Positions 25,801 through 30,604 of a DNA stretch of 64,000 nt are shown in pieces. The stretch comes from Maylandia zebra. Taxonomy: Eukaryota > Chordata > Actinopteri > Cichliformes > Cichlidae. The notes under the pieces are model-generated. The model saw nothing but the letters and a program-made list of their open reading frames with translations, had not been told where the DNA came from and did not search any database. Made by a program: the position numbers and the translations under genes. The stretch covers positions 33,276,509-33,340,508 of the forward strand of contig NC_135182.1 in NCBI RefSeq assembly GCF_041146795.1, given 5' to 3'. Positions within the stretch are counted from its first letter, which is position 1; every line of letters begins with the position of its first letter.

Positions 25801-28800
25801 TGGTTTTTATATAGTTTTTTTTTTAAAATCTCATTCATAAGCTGCAAGATCATTGCACAACCCACAATTTTGTCTCCACTTGATTATGGTGCTATTGTTT
25901 TATGAGTGCATCTATATCCACCTTAAGGTCTCTAATGGGAGTTTTTCCTTCACACTGTTTCCAAAGTGCTTGCTCAGTGAGTCATATGTTGTCTGTATGC
26001 ATTATTGTCAGGTCTAATTAACAATATAAAGCACCTTGAGGTGACTGTTGTTGTGATATGACGCTGTATAAATAAAATTGAATTGAATTAATTTGAATTA
26101 AATTCTGTGTATCACAGTGCATAATGTGAAAATTTTAAATTGTTGTATTTGTGCATCTGCAACTACTCTTGCACCTGTTTTTAGTCTTCACTGTTAACCT
26201 TTGCTGTATTTTTCACAGTAAAATACCACAAAATGCCCAGTAACTTACCTGAAAACATTTCTACAGTTAATTACTGTAATTTGCTTTGCATTATGGGTAT
26301 ATTAAGGTTATTTACATTTACTTACTGTATTTTTTAAAATTGCGGTAGTAGTTATACCTACCGTTAACACATTAGCAGTAGTGCTACTGTATTATGTGAT
26401 TTGAATGGTTCATCATACTGTTTGTGTATTTTTACTCTTTCAGTGGTTGGTTGCAATAGTGCATTACATTTTAACTCTTTCACTGCCAACCATTTCCAGA
26501 TTTTCCTCCAACCTATGCCATTTGTCAGTATGATACCAGTGAAAGTATTATGGTTTTGACTTTTTAGGGGACTTGCCTGTGTGTAAGGTTCAAGAATTCT
26601 GATCATCTAATCTGCTGCATGCAGTTGTATGCACATGCACAGCTGCTGCAAATGTGTGCTTGCCACTGCGTTGCCAAAGGCGAACTTCAGTCAGTGGAGA
26701 ATATTGTAATAATTTGGCGGAGGCTTCTCAGTCGAGCAGTAACTGAATTGCTCATTTACTGAACGTGCAACATGTACAGAACTCTTCTGGGAACTAGTCA
26801 ACCCAACTTAGTGAAACACACACTGAATGCATGCTGGCCCACCCACCTACCTCTACCAACCACCACTCCATATCCTGACTGACATGACCTGTGATCCAGT
26901 GATTGACAGGAGAGGAAAGACAGTCCAACTTTGTTAACTCTTCATTACGATATGCTCGAGAGGACAAAAGATTTTGCACCTCGTTATTGTTGGGCCTCTG
27001 TGTGGAAACTGCAAACGGGACGTCATAAGGTAATGCAAAGGACTCTCCTACCTAACATACTCGTTTATTAATTCTTAAGAGCATATATATTTTTTGTGTG
27101 TGGGGGGAGGGGGCTTAAAATCGGTGTTAGCTTGGTCGGAATAGCACATTAGCTGAATTATTCTGGAAAAAATAGGTTGTGTGTGTTTTTTTCTTTTCTT
27201 ATTTAAATATATATTTAGATATATATTTTCCACGGGGAGGGGCGAAGAACACAGGCGCAACGACAGTCTTTGTCTTTTTCCCGCCGAGTGTGGTGCATTG
27301 TTCTCCTGGGCTTCTGTTCTATGACTATTGAGAAGCTAGCCACGCTAACAGTGGGACATTTAGCTTCAGCTAAAGCAGCAGGTAAAAATACACATTTAAT
27401 GAGAATAAAGAAAGACAATTTTTTTTTGGAAATTTAGAGACTGCTAAAACAATCTTATCCAGTTTTGAGCTTGCTCATGTAGGTTAGCCTGCTTTATTTA
27501 ATTTTGTGTGAGCTGCAGTACACAACATTAAAAAGTTAATATAACATTAGGTTGGTGGCGTGAGGAACTCCAACCTAAGTTTAATATTTATTATTATTTT
27601 TTTAGGTGGGAAGGGGAGCATGTTTTTTTCCCTTTAATGCAACGTCTTCCAGGGTCTTTTTCATAGGAAAACCGTGTAACGTCTGTGTTAGGTTGGTCAA
27701 AAGAGCAATTAGTTGAATTATTCTGGAAAAGATGGGTTGTGTGTTTTTTTTCTTTTATTTACTTATGTAAATATATTTTTCAAGGGTTAAATAAATGCAA
27801 CATTAAATTAACAATTGTCTCTCTGTCTTTTCCCGCCCAGTGTGGTGCATTGCTGTCCTCCTGCCCTTGCTGGCTGCGCTGACAGTGTGATGTAGCCTCA
27901 GTGTTTGTGTTTTAAAGGCTTTTTCCACCAAGATGTCTGTTGAGAGAGAGATGACCTTACCCATCACACCAAGGGTAATAGCGCTTGGTAAGTAAATACT
28001 TTCAATCCTCTTGTAATATTTTTGTAAAAAATCTATGTAATTATTGTGGTATTTGTACCCACAACAACTTACTTAACAGGGGTTTGTCTGTTTTATATTG
28101 TATAAAAATAGAATACACACAGTTTGCTGCTGTTTCTCTTATTTATTATACACAATGACCAACAGGAAAAAACAGCCTAACATTTCAGCACAGGCCAAAA
28201 TGCCAAAACATTAGGCAGTTTTTTCCTGTAATTGATCATAATTTTCATTACATAATAAATAATAAGAGAAATAGCAGCAAACTGTGTGGATTCTATTTTT
28301 GTACAGTGTGAGGCCTGCTATCCAGCATTCTTGTGGAAACCTTATTTGTAACGGTGAGCACATTGTCTTATTGGACTCTTGTCTGTTTTTAGGGAATAAT
28401 TTCATGTCTGCAAGCCGCTGGATGATCAGTTTGGAGGGCAAGGCATTTTATGAGCCTGAGCAGATGCATGACTTTGCCAGCACCCTTGCTGTCTTCTTTG
28501 CGTCATACTACGTTTTCAACCTTGAGTATCAGGAGTCAGCGTCCATCACACAGGAGATGATACAGAGGTAAATACTTTACACCATTAAAGCTTACACCAT
28601 TTAAGAATGAAATATATGTGATAGCTTGACTACAGTTGCAGAAACATATAAGTGATTGCTGTAATGTATGTTTTAATTTTGAAATTAAAGCAGCCTTTTT
28701 TCCGTTAAAAGGTTCTTTGTGAGGATCAATCCAGACATGGGAACAAAATGCCCTGCAAAACTTGGTACAAGCTGCAAGACAGGTCGTGTCGTAAAGAGGA

Positions 28801-30604: not shown

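Follow-up and report, generated by a model that had tools for sequence, protein, structure and literature searches.

The window analysed here is a stretch of 64,000 nucleotides of the Maylandia zebra genome (RefSeq assembly GCF_041146795.1, contig NC_135182.1, positions 33,276,509 to 33,340,508 of the forward strand), in which a preliminary description had placed a small spliced gene inside a unit with inverted ends. Checked base by base, the unit occupies positions 26189–29749 (3,561 bp, plus strand); it starts with the 5′ terminal inverted repeat CACTGTTA (26189–26196, plus strand), ends with the 3′ terminal inverted repeat TAACAGTG (29742–29749, minus strand) and is flanked by TT on either side (26187–26188 and 29750–29751), the two copies of a target site duplication. 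It is an internally deleted, non-autonomous element and, from the end-to-end alignment of its copies and the comparisons given below, probably belongs to the CMC (CACTA-like) transposons. The clustered ACAGTAA subterminal repeats that had been reported are confirmed: ACAGTAA/TTACTGT occurs three times in the 5′ subterminal region (the first 300 bp, 26189–26488), four times in the 3′ subterminal region (the last 300 bp, 29450–29749) and not at all in the middle, with these terminal counts reached by 0/500 and 1/500 dinucleotide shuffles, respectively. The related motif TTACAG/CTGTAA is found ten times in the last 300 bp (0/500 shuffles) and once in the first 300 bp (177/500 shuffles). The 5′ non-coding part of the element also holds two direct repeats about 555 bp apart (27116–27307 and 27677–27859), an internal duplication, and immediately outside the element there is an inverted repeat (29965–30095) with 58-nt arms that are 98% complementary and separated by 15 nt.

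Within the element, three coding exons at 27933–27987, 28393–28567 and 28712–28877 (plus strand, the last with the stop codon), all with AG/GT borders, would be spliced to give 131 residues and a stop. An additional GT-AG intron (28878–29029) lies in the 3′ UTR and is followed by a predicted 3′ UTR exon (29030–29356) that extends to an AATAAA at 29351–29356. As predictions, therefore, the 131-residue spliced frame, the spliced 3′ UTR and the poly(A) signal are sound, but they do not make up a complete small gene, since what the window copy retains is the three final coding exons of a longer gene encoded by the element. This second gene, as we refer to it below, is found in longer copies of the element elsewhere in the genome, and by its predicted frames its three final coding exons make up the 131-residue ‘gene’. 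In one of these copies, L015, the exon that precedes the 131-residue frame ends in ILAD and the ATG of the frame falls within the following exon; on this reading the predicted ATG would encode a methionine inside the full-length protein, and the first exon of the frame would be an internal exon with a probable start at 27918. The second and last coding exons each have a homologous exon in a diverged element on contig C2. The intron after the first exon contains an inverted repeat (28099–28305) with 51-nt arms that are 90% complementary, perhaps a nested foldback insertion, which is also readable in L015. Searches with the 131-residue protein gave a single chance match in Pfam (Bac_export_3, E 0.19) and tubulin-specific chaperone D at E 1 in PDB sequences, and a PDB search with alignment A2 gave no match.

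There are 18 copies of the second coding exon in the host genome (962 Mb), with 98–100% identity. In the 17 copies outside the window the similarity, unless interrupted, reaches the first or last base of the unit and then ends, and the borders at 26189 and 29749 thus coincide with where the other copies begin and stop, from base 1 to base 3561, which establishes that the inverted ends are real. The first 200 bp of the element match 17 places in the genome, three of them at about 70% identity and 14 at 92–100%; these 14 are already known copies, 13 of which match from base 1 and one (L020) from base 4, and the 5′ end was not seen in L017, L018, L019 and L025. In L020 the outermost 3–5 bases are replaced at each end of the copy. 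Where both ends and both flanks could be read, in ten copies, nine have matching 2-bp pairs (five TA, three TT and one TG) and the exception, L024, has flanks that differ; this count leaves out L015, L017, L018, L019, L022, L023 and L025, with one or both ends unread, and L020, with its outermost bases changed at both ends. The preliminary description had proposed looking for other copies between the same ends, and the same 5′ terminal region is present in 14 of 18 and 2-bp duplications in nine of the ten fully read. The empty site that it had also suggested looking for was not found: the joined flanks of the window copy gave six matches, none of which crossed the junction. Against every locus retrieved, the joined flanks of nine copies gave matches at their own sites only, except for a 70-bp repeat common to L021 and L013.

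In the window copy, element base 1714 is followed directly by base 1716 (window 27902/27904), and at this junction (27902–27904) two longer copies, L015 and L016, carry 3,634 and 2,364 bp, respectively, which encode on the same strand a transposase and then the front of the second gene. The earlier statement that no transposase is visible is therefore correct for the window copy but not for the family, whose longer copies hold the transposase precisely where the window copy has been joined. The same deletion is common to 11 of the 18 copies, comprising the window copy, eight copies with identical junctions, L009 by its right border and L022, which is contiguous by alignment; other remnants are present in L018, L019, L020 and L023. 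One deletion is thus found at unrelated sites with separate duplications, from which it follows that the deleted form multiplied by transposition, needing a transposase from elsewhere, and we infer that it was mobilised in trans. L016 has the same two ends as the window element and a TG duplication, and in L015 the 5′ end, at C20:1248931, is about 7.2 kb from the 3′ end, which is within the locus, with the 5′ flank unread. Each of the two has its own internal deletions, and a third partial transposase is present in L025, so that among the copies of this subfamily that keep a transposase (L015, L016 and L025) none is a complete parent. In L018 (3835–4101 of the reversed locus) about 53 bp of second-gene coding sequence is present as several tandem repeats.

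The transposase of the longer copies has N-terminal C2H2 fingers and motifs of the CMC (CACTA/EnSpm-Mirage-Chapaev) group. By eye, the aspartates of LYQD and GDNLGSH and the FCRYC motif, as C(2)C, can be recognised in L016 and in the C2 element, while HHYLLH/HHYLRH, as H(3–4)H, and RFE can be recognised in L015 and in the C2 element. The CMC group has been defined by C(2)C and H(3–4)H motifs between the second D and the last E, by CA..TG ends and by a target duplication within 2–5 bp (PMC12730594), and all of these appear to be shared here: the inverted-repeat termini are CACTGTTA..TAACAGTG in the window and CACTGT..ACAGTG in the C2 element, and the duplications are of 2 bp in nine of ten copies, with TA/TA at the C2 element. 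We therefore consider the transposase to be of the CMC kind, an assignment made from motifs, with which the ends and the duplication length agree. It departs from CACTA/EnSpm proper in duplication length, since 3-bp duplications are given for EnSpm and those found here are of 2 bp; they occur with CACTG ends and a conserved second gene. Among Pfam families the one match of the C2 transposase was Transposase_21 (E 0.034; score 13.8 bits, cut-off 28.6), which did not match the L016 and L015 pieces; these gave DUF6842 (E 0.18) and AcMNPV_Ac75 (E 0.17), each far under cut-off. A PDB search with the transposase alignment recovered C2H2 fingers only (best 1ubd, E 5.1e-05), and the C2 transposase had no relative in the one set of viral contigs scanned with it.

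An intact relative is found at C2:15615259–15622533, where an element of 7,275 bp (7.3 kb) with CACTGT..ACAGTG ends is flanked by TA on both sides. It contains one open transposase frame, of 880 amino acids from the first methionine, and a second gene that by eye is complete, with a 70-residue first exon, a large exon (366 codons from stop to stop) and two last exons. The spliced product of these last two exons is 35% identical to the 131 residues of the window and its introns are at corresponding places. TTACAG/CTGTAA occurs four times in the last 300 bp of the C2 element (shuffle mean 0.21, 0/500), while ACAGTAA is found in neither of its terminal 300-bp regions (0 and 0), and the repeat motif therefore differs between families.

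We estimate the second gene at about 530–560 codons, spliced and on the same strand downstream of the transposase. A 303-residue stretch of its protein gave 68 matches in the genome, which were merged to 53 loci, and 22 of these have a transposase match within 8 kb among the 150 of 283 candidates that make up the transposase set. In all 22 linked loci the second gene is on the same strand and downstream, where chance would give about 0.13 of 53; the remaining 31 loci are without a transposase among the 150 of 283 candidates scored, and deletion copies are included in them. Seen from the transposase, 25 of the 30 matches with at least 47% identity are followed within 10 kb by the second gene in the same orientation (6/9 at 60% or more and 19/21 at 47–59%; two of the 30 matches represent one C12 locus), as is one of the four at 43–46%. 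At 42% or less the second gene is downstream of 3/116 matches and a weak match is upstream of 5/116; near the other 108 it was undetected by the query and may exceed the query's reach. An antisense second gene was seen at none of the 150 transposase matches listed. The proposal that the small gene encodes a transposon accessory protein is in this respect supported, as many diverged families have the second gene downstream of their transposase, and for the same reason the alternative proposal of host-gene cargo is not.

The five upstream matches (C10:24278389, C13:27274229, C14:14180514, C17:33829885 and C22:17753429) belong to a family with about 37% transposase identity, and consist of a weak match to the C-terminal part of the second protein (28–29%, E about 2e-4) just upstream of the transposase; a reordered or fused version of the arrangement is possible. 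A relative that has diverged to about 59% identity with the 131 residues, and in which two of the final exons are fused without an intron, is found at L027–L037, L041, L048 and L049, on contigs C5, C8, C10, C14, C16, C18 and C21 and mostly near chromosome ends, several of which carry it in near-identical stretches (97–99.5% over 0.45–1.9 kb). The last coding exon alone is present in at least 13 copies that are 90–91% identical, with a 62-codon frame, on C2 and C33 only (for example C2:9861237 and C33:1000947).

The start of the second protein is possibly SAM-like, as SAM_TNK matches the C2 protein at E 0.047 (score 14.2 bits, cut-off 25); the L015 protein gave DUF6842 (E 0.18), and in PDB sequence searches the N-terminal domain matched only short stretches of protein A and no SAM chain. 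Genes of this kind appear to be annotated in fish as SAMD3-like, and these annotated proteins presumably have a SAM domain followed by a C-terminal part that resembles that of the second protein, which we take as a lead only.

Taken as a whole, the unit is very probably a non-autonomous, internally deleted copy of a two-gene CMC (CACTA/EnSpm-like) transposon, and would be mobilised by proteins from fuller copies. In the parent element a C2H2-finger transposase would have been followed downstream by the spliced second gene on the same strand, and a single deletion would have brought the 5′ non-coding sequence of the element directly against the intron that precedes the three final coding exons of the second gene. 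This deleted form would have retained both ends and the subterminal repeats, so that the proteins of fuller copies could move it, each move leaving a 2-bp duplication. The transposase would cut at CACTG/CAGTG and insert with the 2-bp duplication, and the second protein, which has stayed next to the transposase across wide divergence, most likely assists transposition. In maize En/Spm, TNPA binds the subterminal repeats and is needed for transposition (PMC2613891), and by analogy the second protein might bind the ACTGTAA-type end repeats; we put this forward as a tentative suggestion, somewhat more doubtful than probable; the transposase's own fingers could be the binder instead. We also propose, with a confidence that falls just short of evenly balanced, that a protein whose start is SAM-like and whose C-terminal domain is undescribed may be a core, co-inherited part of a large branch of animal CMC elements, a TNPA analogue, with many genomic copies mistaken for ordinary host genes. 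A further branch may have the C-terminal domain immediately upstream of the transposase.

Another reading is that the second gene belongs to the element but acts on the host, for example against silencing, or sets the expression of the element. That the transposase's own C2H2 fingers could bind the ends would leave room for such a role, and fungal transposons of several kinds carry TET/JBP genes, which indicates that transposons can carry genes that do not serve transposition (PMC12730594); transposition of plant En/Spm is, however, by rule a two-protein process (PMC2613891), and we judge this reading rather doubtful, if a serious contender. It is also conceivable that the 131-residue frame is itself functional and that a shortened second-gene product from deleted copies interferes with transposition, much as KP repressors do for P elements. 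Most copies are of the deleted form (11/18), and in the 16 copies that have all three exons the splice borders are kept in 16/16 and there is no internal stop in 15/16 (L024 has the one internal stop, and L018 is without the normal stop). However, young copies would be expected to hold few stops anyway, and the diversity among deleted copies is not lower in exons (1.02%) than in introns (0.90%). Their distinct exon changes are five synonymous, ten non-synonymous and one stop (P 0.41 for a synonymous excess), and for all 16 copies 11, 16 and one (P 0.09). These comparisons of exon with intron diversity and of synonymous excess, in deleted copies and in all 16, thus gave no sign of selection on the frame, which is probably intact because it is young, and we regard a functional frame as unlikely.

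Capture of a host gene as cargo would account for a frame with introns and a poly(A) signal, and SAMD3, a vertebrate host gene, has what we take to be a similar look. Against this, the second gene follows the transposase in many diverged families and must therefore be old in the elements, and no conserved single-copy host locus stood out, with 31 of 53 loci lacking a transposase among the 150 of 283 candidates; capture is for these reasons very improbable. The poorest account of the data is that the ends match by chance or that segmental duplication produced the copies. Diverged relatives do sit in near-identical duplicated stretches near chromosome ends, but similarity between the copies breaks off at the ends of the element, where there are 2-bp duplications, and the joined flanks of nine copies are unrelated save for the repeat shared by L021 and L013, which makes this account scarcely credible.

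Several components of this arrangement are already known, namely deletion derivatives of CACTA elements (PMC2613891), non-autonomous EnSpm elements of zebrafish (PMC3485254) and the extra proteins of SmTRC1 (PMC1636069). Maize En/Spm, as described in PMC2613891, has a transposase and a second protein (TNPD and TNPA among its products), clustered subterminal repeats and deletion derivatives, as here, although in the present elements the frames indicate two separate tandem genes and the likeness to TNPA is one of arrangement. SmTRC1 of Schistosoma mansoni is likewise an animal CACTA-type element with 2-bp duplications and extra proteins, but these are described there as arising by alternative splicing and as being without relatives in other elements (PMC1636069), whereas the second gene reported here is conserved across diverged elements of one genome. 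The zebrafish EnSpm-N elements (EnSpm-N6_DR and others) are non-autonomous EnSpm elements of fish (PMC3485254), and the window unit is set apart from them, by the description given for EnSpm-N6_DR (346 bp), in having coding exons. A partial search of the literature found no description of the conserved second gene; ‘EnSpm’ occurs together with ‘SAM domain’ in PMC11760641 and PMC7070046, and ‘samd3-like’ in PMC7037442. On our interpretation a puzzling small gene becomes readable as a deletion derivative, which draws attention to a second protein conserved among animal CACTA-like transposons. Should transposition need this protein, these elements would resemble plant En/Spm in using two proteins. 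Annotated genes of this type may, moreover, belong to transposons rather than to the host.

Elsewhere in the window, two minus-strand frames (30080–30667 and 58429–58896) are alike and presumably resemble the start of an extended synaptotagmin, with no match in Pfam, and suggest that host genes have been duplicated here; immediately beyond the first of the two frames comes the element, perhaps in an intron of that gene. A plus-strand frame of 1,122 codons (18363–21731) contains a reverse transcriptase domain (Pfam RVT_1, E 9.4e-26), and another plus-strand frame (37492–38337) has a weak Pfam match to DDE_3 (E 6.6e-04) that is under cut-off.
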